From positions 311,854-375,853 of the forward strand of contig NW_012236523.1 in NCBI RefSeq assembly GCF_000787575.1: a DNA stretch of 64,000 nt, written 5' to 3'. The DNA is from Acytostelium subglobosum LB1. Its lineage: Eukaryota; Evosea; Eumycetozoa; Acytosteliales; Acytosteliaceae. The translations under genes and the position numbers were made by a program. The notes below the pieces were generated by a model, which did no database searches, was not told where the DNA came from, and saw nothing but the letters and a program-made list of their open reading frames with translations. Below are positions 22,561 through 47,800 of the stretch, piece after piece (within the stretch, counting starts at the first letter, position 1; each line of letters starts with the position of its first letter).

Positions 22561-25500
22561 TTATTTGAGGAAGCCAAAGATGTGGAAACCATCCTTCTTA
22601 TCGGGCGAGGTTACTTTGGATGGTGACAAGGTGGCGGGAGCCTCAGGGCCAGGACGTTCTTGTTCGGTGGTGCAAAGTAGGAGTTGTTGATAGTCAGAGC
22701 ATAGCTCTTCTTCAAAGGTCATTCCCAACTTGTTGGCCTTTTCCTTGGCCTCTTGGATGGACTTCTCAATCTCGACATTGGCGTCCTCTTTGTTGGTAAG
22801 TGCGTTGACAATCGAACGGAGCAGGAGCAGTCTCGGCTGAGCAATTGGGAAGATGTCGGCAAACTTCTCCAAAAGTATCATACACTCGATGATCTCGTTC
22901 ATCAATTTGGATCGGTTATGTATGGTAGGTGGTGAGGGAGTTGTGTTGTTGTTGTTGCTTGGTGATGATGCAGTAGTAGTAGTCGATGTTGTAGTTGTTG
23001 ACTGGATATTAAGTATCTTGATTAGAATCAATGGCAATGAAGCGTATGATTCGTAAGTGGTGAAGTTGTTGGGTTCGCATCGGTTGAGAATAGTGTGTAC
23101 AGTCCTGCAATGTTCGTAGCAGGTGTTGATATCATTGTTATACAGTGCAATGTGAGCCTTGAGAATGTTGTAGTTCATCTGATAGGAGTTTGGTATCTCA
23201 GAGTTGCCCACTGTGGACATCAAGCGCTCGATCTCCTTCATGTTGGCAATGTAGCCTTCGTGATCACCCAGACGGAACTGGCACATGGATAGTGAGAGCA
23301 ACGACATGATCTGGATCTGATGGTCCTCTCTTGCCCTCGAGCTCTCCAGTGTTTGTTGTGCCAATGTCATGCTGGGCTTGATCTGACACATTAGGTATAG
23401 ACAGTTGGCAAGGAAGATACTGGACTCTTCCATCATCTTCTTGTCGCCAGAGGCAGATGCTGACTCTGTTGCTGTTTGGAAACCGGCCTCAGCCTCGCTC
23501 CAACGACCTAGACCAGCCATGAGAATGCCCCATGACTGATGCGAGTTGCCACATACATAGGTATTGGTCTCCTTTGACGCCAACACTGCAGCGTAGTATC
23601 TGAGAGGCGTTGTGTGATCTCCATTCGCTCCAAGCACACGGATACCAATTGAGAAGGCTTCCGATTGGAGATTCCAGTTCTCACCTGCCAGTTGGGAAGA
23701 GACAAAGCAGCACCAGGTGGCTGAGCTCTTGGCACAATCGTGCAAGAATATCTTGGACAGGAGCACGAGCGAGAGTATGGCTTCACGCTTTTCGAATGGG
23801 TCCAAAGATGATGTGAAGAACTTGGTCAGCGAGTCCTGTCTGGCCATCTTGGGCAAACGGACGAGCTTTCTTGGACCAGCGCTGGCTGGTGCTTGTTGTT
23901 GGGATGGCGGACCGTTCAGACCACCAGGCATCTCAATGCCCATGTGTTTGAGCGCAGAGAAGAAGTGCATGGATGCAGACTGAAGAAATCCCATGTTGTA
24001 CAATACCATGCCAAGCTTGCGGGTCATGGACACGACCTCAAATGGAGTCTTTTTGATCATACCAGCGCTTGGTGATGAGAGTGGGGCGGTCGTGATTGTA
24101 GTGGATGGCGAAGATGAACTCCTGTGATGGCCTCGCCTAGGTTTCTTCTCCTCATCGCCTCCCTCGCCACTGCTGTTGCCACCTCCAGGTGCACTTGGGT
24201 TATTGTTGGCATTCATCTCCATCTCCATACACTTCAATGTTAATTGGAAGTACTTGACAGCCTCCTTATTGTCATTGACGCCCATGGCCTTGAGACCAGC
24301 CTTCATCGCATACTCCTTCGTCTTGCTGTAGTCTTGAGCACAGTGATAGTGATGCACCAGTGATTGAGGAGTACCGTTCTCCTTCTCGAGTGATTTGGCA
24401 ATTTTGAAGTGTAGCTCACGTCGTTGAGAGAACAGCATCACACCATAGATGACCTCTTGTGTGCGCGTGTGTTGGAATGAGTACACCACGTCTGTTTGAT
24501 CATTTGTCTTGGATGCCACAGTCTTTGATTTGATAAAGTGTAGCTTCTCCAATTGAGCCAGATCATTGATAAGGTCCTGCTTGCTGGTCGAGTCAGAGGG
24601 CATCATTGAGTATAGATAGTCGGCTGTGAATGGCATGTCGATTACCGAAGCGACCTTGAGCTCAAGCTGCTGTGTGTTGCTCAGTCGATCTACTCTGCTG
24701 GTGATCAGTGATGTGACTGTGCGTGGCATGGACACCTTGACCTGTTCAATCAGCTCCTGCTTCGATAGACCAGAGCTCTCGTCAAACACACCTGATGAGC
24801 GCAGACTGTTGACCATCTCCTCAATCACAAAGTGGTTGCCCTGTGATCGATTGAATATCTCCTCAATGATCTCGTCATGTATCTTGTTGCTCCTGGGTGC
24901 TGCTGTGTTGCCGCCGCTGCCGCCACGGTCTAGTATCTGCTCAATAAGCATTGCCACCTCCTCCTTGGACGCGAGTGGCTCGAGCTGAATGGTCTCCAAG
25001 TTGGACAATTGGGTGAAGCCAGAGGGAAGCGCGTCCTTAAGAGGACGCATGGAGATGATGATCAAGTGATTCTCAAGTACCTGGCAGAGGTTCTGAGTGA
25101 GTGTCCAGCTTGCTTTGTCCATGAAGTGAGCGTCATCGATGACGATGATCGTGCCAGGTGGCACCATGGTCTGCACTAATCGCAACATGAGCATGTGTTG
25201 AGTCTCTGCTCTTTGTGGCGCAGAGTATCTTCTGTTTGCCTCTGGCAGCTCGGCGCGGATATCCAGAGCTTGTCTGAGCAGGTTGATGTGTGGGCCAAGT
25301 GTCTGTAATGTCTTGTAGCCAGTACGCTCGTCCTCATTCAGATACTCCTGGATCAGCTGTCTCCAAACATAATATTGAGTAGACTCGCTCATTTGTACAC
25401 CGCTAGCCTTGAGTATCTTGATGCCGGTGCAGAAGTTATGCTTGACCTCTGAGATGAACCTGCTCTTGCCCAGACCGGCCTCAGCCTCCAGCAAGAAGAT

Positions 25501-28500
25501 GCGTGTGGGCTTGCCTTGAGTGAGCTCGTGCACCGCGATGGACATCTGCAATAGCTGGGTCTGGCGACCGATGAGCTTGCTCTTGAGGCCGAGCTGTCGG
25601 GGTGAGTTGTTGTCCAGATGCTTGTGCTTCTTGATTGGCTTGAATAGGGGGATCAGAGTTGTCTTGCCTTTGACCTTGATGGGCTCGGTCATGCGAACAA
25701 ACTCAATGTTACGTGCGTTCCTCGATGTCTCCTCGTCACAGAGCACTCCACCCTGACTGTGCGACATGAGCCTCGCTGAGAGGTTGACAATGTCGCCGAC
25801 GACGGCATACTCTCGGCGCTCGTCGCTGCCAACGTCACCGCAGAAGCACTTGCCAGTGGTCACACCAACCGTGCTGATAACCTTGAGCTTGAACAGATTG
25901 ACAACGATCTCCATGGCGGCTTCGACTGCTCGCGAAGGGTCGTCCTCGTGGCTGACACCTGGCATGCCCCAGCAGGCGATCAACACACAACCCTTGTCGT
26001 CGATGATGAATTGGCGCACTGTGCCCTCGTACTTGTAGACGATTGTTTGAGTCTGAGACACGATGGCCTGCAGTGTGTCGAGGTCCTTGACGGGGTCGGG
26101 CACACCATACGAGAGGTTGACAAATATGACACTGATGTATCGCAGTTCGGCGAGGTATGCGCCACGCTTGATGTGATTGACCACAGTGTTGGGCACGAAT
26201 CGCTGCAGTGAATCCTCCATGTCCATGAGCAGGGGCAGGTCGAACAAGAACTTCCTGTCCATTGACGTCAACAAGTCCTCACCGTCGACCGTGGACGATG
26301 GTCGCTTCTCACGCTTCTCCAACTTGGCCAAAGAGTCGAGTCGGTAGTTGGCCTTGCTCTTCTTCTGTGTGACATTGGCAAACTGCTTGACATAGTCCAG
26401 ACATGATTGCGAGATGTAGATCTCACCGGCGTCTGCTTCCTTCTCGCACAGTGTTGCCTGCACGAGAGCCTCACCCGCGATGAGGAACTCTACCTTGGAT
26501 GACTCACCACCCACATAAAGGCCAGACACCTTGCCGCAACCAACTCCAATGTGCAGGGTGAGGAAGCCGCCCGGTACAGGGAAATTGTGAAGTTTGCGTT
26601 GTAGACTGAGTGCGCAGGCACATGCTATACGCACACGGTTCGTCAACTCTCCATATGTTGGCCAATGAGTCAAGACGGCATCACCTGCAAACTTTACAAT
26701 GTCTCCACCGTAGCTCTTCACAATCTTGATCAACATATCAAAGAACAAGTTCAAGTTCTTTGTGAGCAGCTCCACGCCCTCCTGTCCATGATTGCCCAAT
26801 CTCTCAGTGAGTGCAGTAAATCCACTAATGTCCGCGAATAGAACACATGATGAGTAGCTGGTGGTGATGATGTAGGAGTGGGGATAAGTATATGATTGGA
26901 ATAATTCCTTCCTGGTTTACTTACTTCTCAATGTGTGGAGGCTGAATGGGCGTGGCCGAGGCCAGCAATCCTTTGATGACAAGGTTGGAGACGTAGCTGC
27001 CGAGACTTGTGATCTGTAGTCGCTGACGATCGTCAGTTGGAAGTTTGTCCTGTCTGTTCTGCACGGTGGATCCCTCCATCCAGAACTGATTGAAACTATT
27101 ACGTTGTCTCTCCTCATCGCTCTGCTTCAGTCGATTGAGATGCTTGGAGAACACTGACAACTGCTTCAACTTTTGCTTCTTTGGTTGTAGTGGCATCTGT
27201 GTGTTGGTGATCGACGTTGGCTTTGTGTAATGTATAGGCGGTGCCACTGTTGGTGGTGGGGATGTCGATGGTTGTAACTTTGGTGATGTTGTGGAACATT
27301 CTGAGTATGGGTCTGAGTCTGTGGCTCTGTGCCTGATGGTTGATCAATGATGATTGAGGGCACGACTTGGGGCTTGGGATCTTGAACATCCTCAACACAA
27401 GGATCTTTGAGTGCTTGAATCGATGGTGATGGTGAAGGGGAGGATATTGATGTGATTGGTGGAGGTCCATGATGCTCGACACCTTGAGGATGATGTCTTG
27501 GACGTGTCTCGACACCTGTGCCAGACTCTGCAGGTGTCGATGGGCTAGTTGGTGACATGGCAACTGAAGCTGGAGGTGATGCCAATGGTGACATCAAAGG
27601 TGATATAGGTGAGGATGACGATGGAGATGTCGTTGCTGGTGTGATCGATATCGGTGAGGATGATTGTGATGATAATGCTGGTGAGCGAGAGGGTGGTACC
27701 TCTAACAACACATCCTTTTGTTGCTGTCGTTGTTGCTTCTCATTGTCATCCACTCTGACTATACTGAATGCCTGTCCTTGTGTTTGTTGTTGTTGCTTGC
27801 TTGGCTTGCCCTTGATCGAATTCATGAAGCCTCTCATTGGACCATGCTTAGTTGGTGACAAAGCATTCTTTTGAGTTTGCTTTGTACTTGAAGATGTCGT
27901 AGTAGTAGTCGAAGTCGTAGATGTAGATGATGTTGAGGTTGGTATATTCAATGGCCTTGATGGAGTGATTGGATCTGGTATGGGGAAGGGAACAAACACT
28001 GTCAGCAACTCCACTCTCTCATTCACTCCATCAATCAATCATTCATACATACCTTTGACATTGATATTGACCGAGAATACCAGTGACTTGAAGTTATCTA
28101 TACATTTGGTCAGTGATTCAATCATTTCCTAATCATTGTGATTGAGTTAGTATAACCATGGGATGGTCCAAGTGATCGCTGACTGACTTACACTGTGGCT
28201 CTGGACGGCAAGACCATTGATGAGTGTGATAAATAGTGTTGACTCCATCTTGATGTTGAGCTGTTGTGTCGTCTCTTGGAGTTGGAGACAGAGCGTTGGG
28301 AGTGTAAGACTTCTCGTTGTCTCAATATATATCGTTCCCAATGGTCTTGGTGAGCCTCCTTGAGGACTAGACTCATTCAAATGGCTGTGATGGTGTTGAT
28401 TAATGGCTGAGTCACCTGCTCCAACAGGTGATTCTGAAAGCTTGGGCATCTGATGTGGTTGTTGTTGATGTTGTTGTTGTTGCTGTTGCTTGTTCATTTG

Positions 28501-34973: not shown

Positions 34974-36335
34974 ATGTCATTCTATCCATCACCAGCACCA
35001 TCAAAGTCATCATCCTTGGATAAGATAAGAGTGGCTGTTGTTGGTGACACTACTGTAGGTACATATCAAGTCATGGTGGCGGAGGTCCAAGTTACTGTTG
35101 ATGATGACGTTGATGATGTTGTTGATACTAACTAACTGACAACAACAACAACAACAACAAACAGGCAAGACATCATTAGTCAACCTAATATGTAAAGGAC
35201 AACTACTTGCTCATCCTCCCTCTTGGACAATGGGTTGCAACACAGACATAAAGGTAAGGAATGATTGATTGAATGAATGAACGACACATTATTAATGATT
35301 GATGATGATGATGTAGATACACGAATACCTATCCAAAGATTACTTTGTAGAGTTTGTAGATGTTGGAGGCTCAACAAAGTATAAGTTATCAAGACCAACA
35401 TTCTATAATGGTATCAATGGTCTGATCGTAGTGTATGATCTTACCAACAAGAACTCATTGGTCAATGTAAAGAAGTGGATATCAGAGGTGTTGAACAAGG
35501 TGTCACCAAACAACAATCCATGGTCACTGAAAGACAAGGAGGTGCCACTACTACTGGACAACACTGCTGATCAGCATCGAGCCACTCACGTTCCCTCCAT
35601 CCCCCTATTGATCATTGGCAACAAGTCAGACCTATTCTACGACAAGTCATTCATTGCGAACGATCATCTTGGACGATTAAGTGCTGCTGTTGTATGTTCA
35701 TTCATTCATTCAATCATTCATTCATTCTTACTCACTCTCGCTCCCTCATCCTTTAGTCTGCATTGAATGTTGATTGCTTCAGAGCTGGCAGCGAGAACTA
35801 TAATAAGCTTGACTTGTTTCTGAATAAGATCATCAGTATTATGCTGGAGGGCAATAGGAAGAGATCATCATCTAGCAATGTGACACCTGGCTTGACATTC
35901 TTTCCAACTTCAAACAGTTTCCATTCGGATATGAGCAGCAGTGGCAGTGGCAGTAGTAGGGAAAGACAACAAGATATTGATAGGTCTGGCGAGCGTCCAC
36001 TCTTTCTAAACAATCAACAACTACACTCTCTGTCGCCAACTCTTCCACACACAATGCAGGACCTATCATTCAGTCCGCCCTCAAACATACCATCAGCATC
36101 ATTGGCTTCATTCTTTAGTGGCAATGGCAATGTCAATAGTAGTGGCAATAGCATCAGTAGTAGTAGTGGCATCAACAACATCATCAACAACAACAATAGT
36201 GAACACTTAATACCATCTCCACAACAACAACATCAACAATCATCTTCAACAACATCATCAAGTGGAAACAAGCCTGTTCTTCATCGTAATCGATCGACCT
36301 CATACGAGATGAATTGGAATTGGAACAACAGTTAA
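34974..36335 (+). CDS. rabl3: Rab-like protein 3 (RABL3) GTPase with Ser/Asn-rich tail
   Basis: Four exons, 34974-35058, 35165-35253, 35317-35691 and 35757-36335, give 375 residues. The G-domain matches RABL3: P-loop GDTTVGKTSLVNLICKGQLL (the intron falls within it), the conserved PPSWTMGCNTDIK, switch II-like VDVGGSTKY, GLIVVYDLTNKNSLVNVKKW and PLLIIGNKSDL. RABL3 lacks a C-terminal prenylation cysteine, and none is present here. The last roughly 150 residues are Ser/Asn/Gln low complexity and are extra compared with the human 236-residue protein. RABL3 is linked to cell proliferation and to Ras prenylation control in animals; its role in amoebae is not known to me. Confidence 0.9.
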
Positions 36336-39655: not shown

Positions 39656-41937
39656 ATGATAATACTTATTAAATCACCTTCAATAACATTTAGTGTGGAT
39701 ATTCATCCAGATGATAATATTGAAGCATTATATAATAAGGTTGCAGAGAGAACTGATTACCAAAGATTCCAATTCGAGTTGTTGTTTGCTGGAAATGGTC
39801 TAAGACATGGTATATCAGTAATTGATAATGGTATCCGAAAGGAATCAATTGTACATATGTTAATAATCAAAGAACTAAGATACATCGTCATCTATAACAA
39901 TGAAGAATATCCAATAACTCTACCAAACAACAATGGTCTAACTGTTCAATCACTACACATGTATGTTGTTGGATGGAACTATCCCAATCACTCAATCAAA
40001 CTAACAATGGACAATACATTTAGGTACATTCGCAATCACTTCATTCGACGTATACCTGCCATTGGTACACACAACATGGAGTTGAGTGTTAGAGGAAGTG
40101 GAAATATGTTGATTGCAACATCTTCGTTACATAGTTGCTTGAAGACAATGGACCGTATTGATCTGTTGTTGATAGAGAAGATACCAACTGTTGACATACC
40201 ATCTGGACCAAGTCTGCCAGAGCAGTTTGATCACGAACTGCTACTGAACAGCTTTGTCGAGTCGTCCATATCATCGGATGTAGAGATCGTCTTTTGTTTC
40301 GATACCACTGGATCAATGGCAACTATAGTTCATACTGTAAGACAACAGGTTGAGGCCACCGTCAGCAGATTGATGAGTGACATACCAAACATACGTATTG
40401 GAATCATGGGACTTGGTGATTATAGTGATGGCAAGGATGTTCTGACCACACTGGACCTTACACGTGATGTTGATCAATTGGTATCATTCATCAACTCTGT
40501 TCCAAACACATCTGGAGGTGATATACCAGAAGCATATGAATGGGCATTGTAAGTCTGTCACACTCGATCATTCATTCATTCAATCATCACTAATCATAGA
40601 CTGCACCCAAACAAATAGGAAAAAGGCCAAAGACTTGTCATGGTCAACATACACATCCAAGGCATTTGTGATGATTGGCGATTCGAATCCACATGAGCCA
40701 TCACATACCAATCTCAAGATCAACTGGTTTGAAGCATGTGTAAGTCGAGTCTGAATGATTGATCATGTCCCATGGCCTACTCACTCAAACGAATTCATCC
40801 CTGCGGATACAGGATGAGCTATACGACATTGGAATCAAGGTATATGGTGTCAAAGCATTGGGCAGTTCTATATTCTATGAGGAGATTGCACAGAGAACTG
40901 GTGGACTATGTATCAATTTCAATAACTTTAAGTTGATCACAGAGATGTTCTTGGCAATATGTTACAGGGAGGCATCATATGAGAAGTTCAAGAAGTATGA
41001 GAGGGAACTCATATCACCAAACACTGGATCATCAAACAACAACAACAGCAACAACAACAGTAGCTCTGATATCACAGCCATCCTATCCGATCTTAATCAA
41101 GCAAACTTCACTGTGGTCGAGACCAAGGACACAGCTGCGTCACCAACCTCCATCAAGCCATCACCATTGAATGATCTATCATCAGACAGCAACAGTAACA
41201 GCAACAACAACAACAACAACAACATTATAATCAAGAAACGTGGATACCCAACTAGAATGAGGAGTAATGAGGACTGGTTCAATCATTCATTGGACAAGAC
41301 TACTTATCCAACATTCATGTACAGCGATACACTTGGATACTTTGTACGCAACAATCCCGATGTGATGAGTAAGCCTGGCATCTCAGACGCACCCCATCAT
41401 GTCTATCCCGATGGAACAAGCTCACTATCAATGGCATCAACAATCTTTGCCGATGACTGCAGGAGCATGAGCAAACAAATGCACAGACGACCAATGGCCG
41501 TGGCAATCGTTGGCGACAACCACATTGGCAAGACAACATTTGTCAACAGGATCAACATGTTTGCATATGGTGATATTGTGTTGGAGGAGTTTACGCCACA
41601 CATCAGAGCCAATCAGATTGGCAAGGTACGTGCATATGGTGTATGCTTTGATGTATCCAATGCCAACAGCTACAAGAATGTTAGGGCATATCTGGACGTG
41701 ATCACAACCAGGGATCGCGGTACACCAATATTCGTTGTGGCACTCAAGTCTGATATTGTTGACAATGCCATTGGAACACCTGTGTATGAGCTGAACGAGT
41801 ACACAACCACTGGATACAAGATCATTGGACACTCCACACATCAGAACAATGCCAGTCTAAAGGAGATAGCAGAGAGGATTAAAAAGACCATCGACCCAGG
41901 TATGCCAGTGACAAAGTCATCCTGTAGTCTGATGTAG
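39656..41937 (+). CDS. Ubiquitin-like + vWFA + degenerate Ras-like GTPase, CAAX-ended
   Basis: Three exons, 39656-40548, 40619-40739 and 40813-41937, give 712 residues. Residues 1-75 look like a ubiquitin-like fold (IILIKSPSITFSVDIHPDDN, LLFAGNGLRHG). A vWFA domain starts near residue 213 with a MIDAS-like DTTGS (216-220), then GIMGLGDYSDGKD and FVMIGDSNPHE. After Asn-rich linkers, the C-terminal 150 residues look like a small GTPase: P-loop GDNHIGKT (572-579), FVNRINMFAYGDIVLEEFTP, VRAYGVCFDVSNANSYKNVR and FVVALKSDI at the NKxD position. The switch II DxxG strand is missing and NKxD is LKSD, so GTP hydrolysis is doubtful. It ends in CSLM, a prenylation-type CAAX box. I know no named family with this order. 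Confidence 0.8.
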
Positions 41938-44815: not shown

Positions 44816-47800
44816 CTACTTTTTGTTCATCTTGATCATGTCTATCATTCGTCTACCTCTCAACTTTTTCTTGATGATTATTGATGTAGCGGCAACAATG
44901 ATTGCCACACCAACTACTGTGACTACAACGATCACTGGTATCTTCCACTTGTTGGAGCTGCTGGAGCGATCTGCACAGGCATCACGGGTGTCCTGATCCA
45001 CAAGTACGGAGAAGTCTGGATCAATTATACAATGTTGGCATTGTGGCAAATTGATTCCAATCAATGTTGTGGTGTCTGTTGTGTTGATGATCTCATTGCG
45101 AGAGAATGATGGTCTGCCATCGGACAAGGCAAAGGGCAAGAATCGACCAAACAGTTCAACACCATTCTTGTTGGTCACCTTGAGGAATTGGACATTATTG
45201 AGCTTGTCAATCTCCACGACACTCTGTGAGCCAGCGCACACATTGGTGGCATTGTTGAGCGAGCCGTCCTTCTGCATAACAACACGCAGCGTGTTCAAGT
45301 TGGACTTGAACGACCATCCACTAATGTCCACCGTCATCTTGAGTGAGTTGGGCGTGTATGTAGTTGTCTGTCCTGCGAATGAGAGAGTCCTGGTGTTTGG
45401 CGAGATGTCCAATGTCACAGTCACGTTCAACAACATCGTGGTACCTCGCTGTGGCACCAGGTTGTAGATGTATGATGTCAGGGTTGCGGATGTAATGACG
45501 CTTGATGTCCAGGTGTTGGTGAACAACTCATCGATGATGATGTTCCTGGTCGAGTCCAACTCTTGAATGGCAACAATGTTGAACTGGAATGACGAGCCAT
45601 CGGCCTCAATAGTCGTGGATGGACTGTTGGCATCAGGTGTGATCACCACACTTGGATTAAGTATTGATTCACAATAAGTACCACCATATCCATTGGAACA
45701 ATGGCACTGTCCACCAACACATTGACCATTGCCATTACACAGATTATCAGTTCCACATTGATCATTATTCTTTGTAGGGTCTACATAATATTATGTTTGA
45801 TTAGTATATGTTTGGAAAGGGTTGGTCGAGTGTGTGGAGTGCTTACAAATGATCAATGTATGGTTTGATTGATAGGCATGTGAGTTGATCTCAATGTAAA
45901 GGTTAGCATAACCTTCAGTCAATCCACCAGGTATCACACAACGAAGTACTGTTGAGTTGGGATTGGCGATATCAGTGCATGTCTTGTCATTGATCGTCAC
46001 CTTGATCTTGTTGATCTGATCACTAAAATATCCATAGAACATCACCGTTCCACCATCCACAGTCAATCTTGATGTTGATCCAACTGATGGGTAAACTATA
46101 TTGATTGAATGATCGATCGAGTGAGTGAGTGATTGATGGATGGCGATGGTTATACATACAATTGATTGGAACTGATGTTGTAAAGTTCTGGTAGTAGTTG
46201 GATAGGAGTAGTTGATTCACTCCTAGGTTGGGAACATCACTCCTTGATATGTTACATATCATTGATGATTGTGTGATCAGAGCTTGTCCACATAGTGCAC
46301 CACTGACAAATACCTTGTACATGAATGACGTCTCAAAGTAACCCGACAGTTTGATATTGATATAGTTGTCCTCGACTAGTCCATAAGCATCTGTTATGTT
46401 TGTACCATCTGTTGCCCATCCAATTTTCTTTGTAACATTGATCGAAGGTGATTCTGTGAATTTAACTTGATCAGATCCATCATCATTATATATTTGGTAT
46501 CTATTCGTTTGATTGATTGTTGTCAGTTTATGAACATTGATTGTTATTGGGTGGAGGGGATACTTACGTGTACAATGTGTTTGGGATGTTCAATCCCAGG
46601 TTGGTGGACATGCCATTGCCATAACCTAGATTTTTACCTCTGATCTTGAAAAAGGAAGGTCTAGGACGTGGCAATATAAAGATTGCACGATCAATTGTGG
46701 CATCTAATTGATTGATTGATTGATTGATTGAATAAGTCAGTAAGTGATTGAGTGATTGAATGAGTGATGGATTGTACATACTGCATGTAAAGGTAGAGGG
46801 AGGTGCAGGAATATTTGATGGAATGTAACCATTTACATCTGACCAGTAACAGTAGAAACATTCTGGGACGGAGAATATACCGGTCTTTGCATAATTGAAG
46901 TATGATTTCCTGATCTGACAATATGACTCTGGTATATATCCATTAACATTTGGATTATTATCGACCAGGAAGAATGTCAATTGAGCTCCTGATGCAAAAT
47001 AATCTGGAATTTGTCCTTTCAAATTATTATTGGATAATACACTATATTGATAATTGTCAATATACTTCTGAGATGGAGTGATGTATCTCTGATCATGTAC
47101 ATACATTTCCAGTTTATCTGTTTGATTGAACCAGCTGAGTGGTGGAAATGATTCAAGACCAGAGTTGGTGTTTGAACTGGATGTCAGGGGAGAGAGGAGG
47201 GCATGATAAGGTAAGTTTGGGTCTGTGATTGATTGATTGATTAATTGAGTGATGGGATGGATGATCACGTACTAAAATGTTAGACCAGATACTTTGGTAA
47301 TTGGACTAGAGACTCTATCGAATATACTGTACATATTGATTGATTGATGGGTGTAAGTAGGTGGGATAAGGATTGTGATGGATGTAGTTGGGAGCTTGAT
47401 TGATCAATAAATACATTGAAGTGATTGATTTGAGCGATGACAGATCCGTGGATGTAAGATTACAATTTGACAATCTCCTGTTTCAAGCAAAGATATGAAG
47501 GATGATTGTCAGTGAATGATTGATTGAATGGTTGGTTGGTTGGTTTGTTGATGCTTGTTGCTTACAAGGTTAGTATGCCAGATGATGCAAGACTGACTGT
47601 TGAGACTGGTGCAGTTACAGGTAGGCTGTAGTATGTTTGTTGAATATTGCTAAGTGGGAGAATGATGAATGAGTATTGTGTTCCTCCATGGAGGTACCTT
47701 GATTGAAGTCCATCACAACATACACTGATTGCAACTGAGGGTTGTTATTGATCTCAACCTGGATTGCTGTGGGAACAATCAATATCCTAAGGATTGATGT

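Follow-up and report, generated by a model that had tools for sequence, protein, structure and literature searches.

A predicted Acytostelium subglobosum protein combining ubiquitin-like and vWFA domains with a degenerate Ras-like domain and a CAAX-type terminus

A 64,000-nucleotide stretch of the Acytostelium subglobosum LB1 genome (hereafter, the window) contains a gene whose predicted 712-residue product carries a ubiquitin-like domain (UBL), a vWFA domain, an Asn/Ser-rich linker, and a degenerate Ras-like domain, in that order. The architecture is real and unusual, with a pseudo-Ras end, and something close to it is already known from this group of organisms. We consider it highly probable that the UBL-vWFA-Ras architecture and the pseudo-GTPase reading hold jointly. 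Our preferred overall reading, in which we place about as much belief as doubt, is that of a single dictyostelid protein with the order UBL-vWFA-Asn/Ser linker-pseudo-Ras-CAAX that is most likely a prenylated, membrane-tethered scaffold. Each domain is ordinary alone; the novelty lies in the combination.

Gene structure and coding potential

The exon joins and the 712-residue length proposed in an earlier note on this DNA were reproduced by joining the three exons listed in Table 1, which give 2139 bases including the stop codon. The introns are 70 and 73 bases long, and both have GT-AG splice sites. The note was also correct in its positions for DTTGS (216-220), GDNHIGKT (572-579), VRAYGVCFDVSN (at 610), LKSD (at 649), and the terminal CSLM. 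Exon 3 comprises 375 codons, stop included, and a 392-codon open run would be expected by chance with a probability of approximately 4e-10 at the stop frequency of the window (5.4%). Since this one open exon takes in the C-terminal end of vWFA together with the linker, the Ras-like part, and CSLM, these parts belong to a single gene at the DNA level, and a split between the vWFA and Ras parts is impossible unless the open frame of exon 3 is ignored.

Codon bias was scored against six other long frames in the window, some of which have no Pfam match. Frame 0 scored +0.17 in the linker and +0.13 in the Ras-like part, where the other five frames were negative; in the vWFA part and in residues 76-200, frame 0 ranked first of the six, yet its score was negative. 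In the AT-rich ubiquitin-like part, frame 0 (-0.27) came second to a reverse frame (-0.22), which calls for caution with the codon test; it is not to be over-read, and the ubiquitin-like part is carried by its Pfam match instead.

Table 1. Features of the predicted gene and protein (positions in the window)
Feature	Position	Strand	Remarks
Exon 1	39656..40548	+	Residues 1-298, codon 298 shared with exon 2; encodes the ubiquitin-like domain, the middle region, and the start of vWFA; frame open, donor GT at 40549
Ubiquitin-like domain	39662..39865	+	Residues 3-70; Pfam 27.8 bits (full-length protein) and 30.7 bits (residues 1-187)
Region without recognized domain	39866..40267	+	Residues 71-204
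vWFA domain	40286..41016	+	Residues 211 to about 406; split by both introns; DTTGS at 216-220, SGGDIPEA at 286-293
Intron 1	40549..40618	+	GT...AG
Exon 2	40619..40739	+	Residues 298-338; vWFA
Intron 2	40740..40812	+	GT...AG
Exon 3	40813..41937	+	Residues 339-712 and stop; C-terminal part of vWFA, linker, Ras-like domain, CAAX; frame open 40759-41934
Asn/Ser-rich linker	41017..41469	+	Residues 407-557 (151 in all), including 25 Ser and 24 Asn
Ras-like domain	41470..41892	+	Residues 558-698; 28 residues fewer than the profile from helix 1 to strand 4
P-loop (G1) GDNHIGKT	41512..41535	+	Residues 572-579; intact, fits GxxxxGK[ST]
Candidate degenerate G3, D592-I-V-L595	41572..41583	+	DxxG with Gly lost; five of five MAFFT modes
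G4 position, LKSD (for NKxD)	41743..41754	+	Residues 649-652
CAAX-type terminus, CSLM	41923..41934	+	Residues 709-712; prenylation predicted

The window holds several other features. Between 44819 and 62683 on the reverse strand, several frames have similar Cys-rich, EGF-like starts, and one of them (44819-45790, reverse strand) matches the ComC supersandwich domain at 100.4 bits. This domain and the Asn/Ser-rich character of the linker are both in keeping with a dictyostelid source. A single frame of 1451 codons at 22564-26916 (reverse strand) encodes a guanylate/adenylate cyclase domain as well as AAA_16. Near 15.4 kb lies a stretch of N, read as X in the frames, which is presumably an assembly gap. 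Ten further frames in the window, searched with Pfam, returned nothing attributable to the gene at 39656-41937.

Domain composition

The order of domains that the earlier note had proposed, ubiquitin-like, vWFA, and small-GTPase-like, is borne out by three Pfam families. In the whole protein, ubiquitin (residues 3-70; 27.8 bits, cut-off 25.4), VWA_4 (211-322; 39.9 bits, cut-off 27), and Ras (602-655; 24.4 bits, cut-off 21.6) matched in this order, all above the curated cut-offs, as did VWA_2 (27.4 bits, cut-off 27). For the N-terminal domain, which thus matches the ubiquitin-like family profile, a phmmer search aligned residues 9-70 with the commonest ubiquitin chain at an E-value of 1.6e-5; ubiquitin concatemers reached far lower E-values because of their repeated units. 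The domain lacks a C-terminal di-glycine, which makes cleavage improbable, and it is probably not cleaved off.

Both family features of a vWFA domain were found, namely a DxTxS motif (DTTGS) and a profile match: the isolated segment scored above the cut-off with VWA_4 (44.6 bits), VWA_2 (29.6 bits), and VWA (27.4 bits). We take DTTGS and SGGDIPEA to be the vWFA metal-site motifs. Against PDB sequences, this part gave two weak matches only (E-values of 0.068 and 0.65). Searched alone, residues 71-200 and residues 407-556 each had a sole Pfam match, at E-values of 0.19 and 0.37, respectively, and three segments of the protein had no NCBIfam match over the cut-off. Residues 1-406 were also used in a pattern search of viral contigs, which found six matching stretches; none of these encodes a relative.

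The CAAX-type end, also proposed earlier, is present as CSLM. By composition, the chance of a terminus having both Cys at -4 and an aliphatic side chain at -2 is approximately 0.004. Prenylation and membrane anchoring of the C-terminus are putative, as they are read from these four residues.

Ras-like domain

Residues 558-712 alone matched Pfam Ras at 29.7 bits (cut-off 21.6), and the best phmmer match of residues 570-657 was to Rab6, with a weak E-value of 0.0023. We built a local Ras/Rab-like profile from 113 loci selected by a DTAGQE pattern (one was skipped), which yielded 47 domains possessing both a P-loop and NKxD, all of them from prokaryotic contigs. The Ras-like part scored 30.3 bits against this profile, and among 2000 shuffles, of which 1722 were reported, the maximum was 7.4 bits; with one row removed (46 domains), the values were 29.2 and 7.1 bits, respectively. 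The matches are collinear, with residues 567-586 corresponding to profile positions 5-24 and residues 615-658 to positions 81-124; in the protein, 28 residues lie between residues 586 and 615, and the corresponding stretch of the profile is 56 positions long.

As for the features of the Ras superfamily, the P-loop and the profile match are present, and the switch I Thr, DxxG, and NKxD are absent. LKSD stands at the NKxD position, and the SAK position of the profile (G5) aligns with THQ in GHSTHQ. Judged from the alignments, no canonical G2 or G3 is left, whichever placement of the loss holds. Together, the degenerate G3 and LKSD lead to the prediction of a pseudo-GTPase with an intact P-loop. 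The earlier description of a degenerate small-GTPase-like C-terminus is upheld as regards its Ras-like nature, LKSD in place of NKxD, and the lack of a canonical DxxG, and it is less likely to be right in naming the DxxG strand as the missing part; its term pseudo-GTPase describes the motifs best and, like them, rests on sequence.

A separate frame in the window (35317-35763, forward strand) also encodes a Rab-like small GTPase; it scored 45.5 bits with Pfam Ras, reads DVGGST, and is presumably RABL3-like. Among the 47 profile domains, seven (L010, L019, L057, L089, L091, L099, and L101) are Rab-like, with a P-loop and NKxD, and come from metagenome bins named Oscillospiraceae; such domains are unexpected in these bacteria.

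Location of the missing residues

The earlier note held that the strand with DxxG is missing. All five MAFFT modes, which share one method and are not independent tests, instead aligned D592 with the Asp of DTAGQE and deleted switch I, including the column of its Thr, together with strand 2. Strand 3 was kept in four of the five, in which the gap directly followed helix 1; in E-INS-i, the gap directly preceded D592, and strand 3 was deleted too. This placement was unchanged when one row was dropped to leave 46 domains.

Scoring against the profile with one gap did not discriminate between the placements: the observed best score was -8.5 bits against a shuffle mean of -8.2 bits, and 2543 of 5000 shuffles scored equally well or better. 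The best single gap in this scoring assigned ten residues to the side of switch I, none of them the conserved Thr, which counts against placing the loss at switch I. The one placement to stand apart was that on the G3 half, which was reached in 0.03 of shuffles, a comparison that was picked post hoc; the switch I placement was reached in 0.40. That switch I and strand 2 were lost is therefore favored rather than proven, as a more likely reading of the alignments than loss of the DxxG strand.

We also considered a displaced G3. The linker contains YSDTLGYF (41320-41343, residues 508-515), which resembles DTAGQE. This candidate was rejected: moving it into the G3 slot brought no gain with Pfam Ras (28.2 bits, against 28.1-29.4 bits for eight control inserts and 29.8 bits for the native sequence). 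When residues 407-561 were shuffled 20000 times, 3.7% of the resulting sequences contained a DTxG motif.

Predicted structure of the Ras-like part

A single-sequence model of residues 558-712 had a pLDDT of 31, and a model built with a 43-row alignment (42 of the 47 domains plus the query) had a pLDDT of 78 and a pTM of 0.74. The elements of the latter follow the order strand-helix-strand-strand-helix-strand-helix-strand-helix. Among the best 50 of 1137 Foldseek matches (E-value limit 0.001), a small G protein appears in 49 titles (Ran, Rab, and KRAS among them), and the remaining title, 7l5e, names CRM1 only; the TM-scores of these 50 by query length were 0.59-0.74. The structural check on the C-terminus thus returned a G-domain-like model, although the alignment used, which consists of distant prokaryotic GTPases, pushes the prediction toward that fold; the model is consistent with a G-domain and is not independent evidence for it. 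A short strand was modeled at residues 593-597, after D592 rather than before it, so the model gives no confirmation of a normal strand 3.

Proposed mechanism and alternative explanations

In the proposed mechanism, which we put forward tentatively, the Ras-like domain keeps its phosphate-binding P-loop and is without switch I, the glycine of DxxG, and the asparagine of NKxD, losses from which we propose that it does not cycle GTP. It may instead act at the membrane as an unchanging module for docking and targeting. The CSLM terminus, if prenylated, would anchor the protein and so place the vWFA binding site and the ubiquitin-like domain at the membrane, where the vWFA domain, whose metal-site motif is present, would bind a partner; the ubiquitin-like domain, remaining uncleaved, could recruit ubiquitin-pathway or proteasome/p97-type factors. 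The sequence itself shows the gene model, the three domains with their order, and the motif losses; the absence of GTP cycling, the prenylation, and the partner binding are all things that we infer. In its available text, PMC5593906 divides pseudo-GTPases into those with no nucleotide binding, those with binding only, and those with retained activity; by its features, the domain would fall into the no-binding or the binding-only class, and its intact P-loop could still bind nucleotide.

The same scheme supplies the most serious alternative, which we nevertheless think unlikely, namely that the domain holds a nucleotide permanently, as in the Rnd-type class ii, and that the bound nucleotide maintains its shape. 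An intact GDNHIGKT, the Lys and Asp kept in G4, and the class ii precedents given in the accessible part of PMC5593906 all speak for this view, whereas the lack of the switch I Thr, the change of the NKxD Asn to Leu, and the change of SAK to THQ should weaken the binding of both Mg-nucleotide and base. It is less likely still, and in our judgment improbable, that the gene is a decaying or misassembled copy, in which a recent deletion or an assembly error has removed 84 bases, without a frameshift, from a formerly working Ras part. The single genome available is a draft, as the run of N indicates; however, the 712 codons form an intact frame, Ras-family sequence flanks the loss on both sides, coding bias is present in the Ras-like part, and G4 and G5 are altered too, which a single deletion does not explain.

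We see very little chance that two adjoining genes have been read as one. A low-complexity linker of 151 residues does lie between the vWFA and Ras parts, and GC3 climbs along the gene; against this, no stop intervenes, and the one open frame runs through a linker with a positive frame-0 bias. Equally slight is the chance that the protein is a divergent member of the cpRAS-VWA family, in which a circularly permuted Ras domain is combined with a VWA domain. The two domain types do occur together in Dictyostelium, according to the available text of PMC2430557, which describes no N-terminal UBL; the motif order here is G1-(G3)-G4-G5 rather than G3-G4-G5-G1-G2, the domain order is reversed, and the Sec23/Sec24 trunk model of Pfam was not matched.

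Setting these alternatives beside the pseudo-Ras scaffold, we retain the latter. With considerable reserve, we suggest an undescribed dictyostelid family of membrane-tethered pseudo-Ras adaptors, in which switch I would have been cut out independently of CENP-M with the P-loop kept, turning a switch into a fixed anchor that links a metal-dependent vWFA site and a UBL to the membrane. The known pseudo-GTPases are relatively few, as far as the available part of PMC5593906 describes them, and two of those considered here, CENP-M and the pG1 domain of p190RhoGAP, have lost switch I. A separately assembled case, with the P-loop kept and placed before a prenylation-type end, would help to sort the anchoring from the switching parts of a Ras domain.

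Comparison with known systems

In the openly licensed literature, searched by title and start of abstract, no paper with the UBL-vWFA-Ras order was found among the matches listed, which is weak evidence of absence; the accessible portions of PMC2651865 and PMC8195603, consulted for combinations of vWFA, Ras, and ubiquitin-like domains, contain none with this order. To that extent, the earlier statement that no named family has this order holds, but it passed over the related cpRAS-VWA proteins (PMC2430557). VwkA, as presented in the available text of PMC1420674, is likewise a Dictyostelium signaling protein with a vWFA domain, and it has an alpha-kinase in place of the Ras part.

In p190RhoGAP, a pseudo-Ras domain is likewise part of a multidomain protein, and switch I of pG1 is absent through an 11-residue deletion; unlike in the present protein, all five G motifs of pG1 are degraded and the partner domains are different (PMC5593906, available text). 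The human pseudo-GTPase CENP-M has a Ras/Rab-like fold that has lost the helix 1-strand 2 loop and strand 2 (switch I), and its DxxG is highly divergent, as is the G3 here. In contrast to the present domain, it has also lost two P-loop glycines; it failed to bind MANT nucleotides and is a metazoan kinetochore protein, for which the available text of PMC4080450 describes no UBL, vWFA domain, or CAAX box.

A Ras-type and a VWA domain also occur in one protein in the cpRAS-VWA family, such as DdiCPRas1, which is found in Dictyostelium and in several other lineages. As described in the available text of PMC2430557, these proteins differ: their Ras domain is permuted and has typical motifs, a linker joins it to a VWA domain on the C-terminal side, and most have a putative zinc finger, with no UBL or CAAX box described. 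In the present protein, the motifs run from G1 at residue 572 through strand 4 at about 615 to G4 at 649, VWA_4 (211-322) lies upstream of the Ras-like part rather than C-terminally as a Sec23/Sec24-trunk VWA, and PF04811 is absent from the whole-protein Pfam matches up to an E-value of 10 with the HMMER filters applied. On these features (a non-permuted Ras domain, the reversed order, and a different VWA profile), the predicted protein is not a cpRAS-VWA member. CENP-M and cpRAS-VWA are its nearest precedents, and it belongs to neither.
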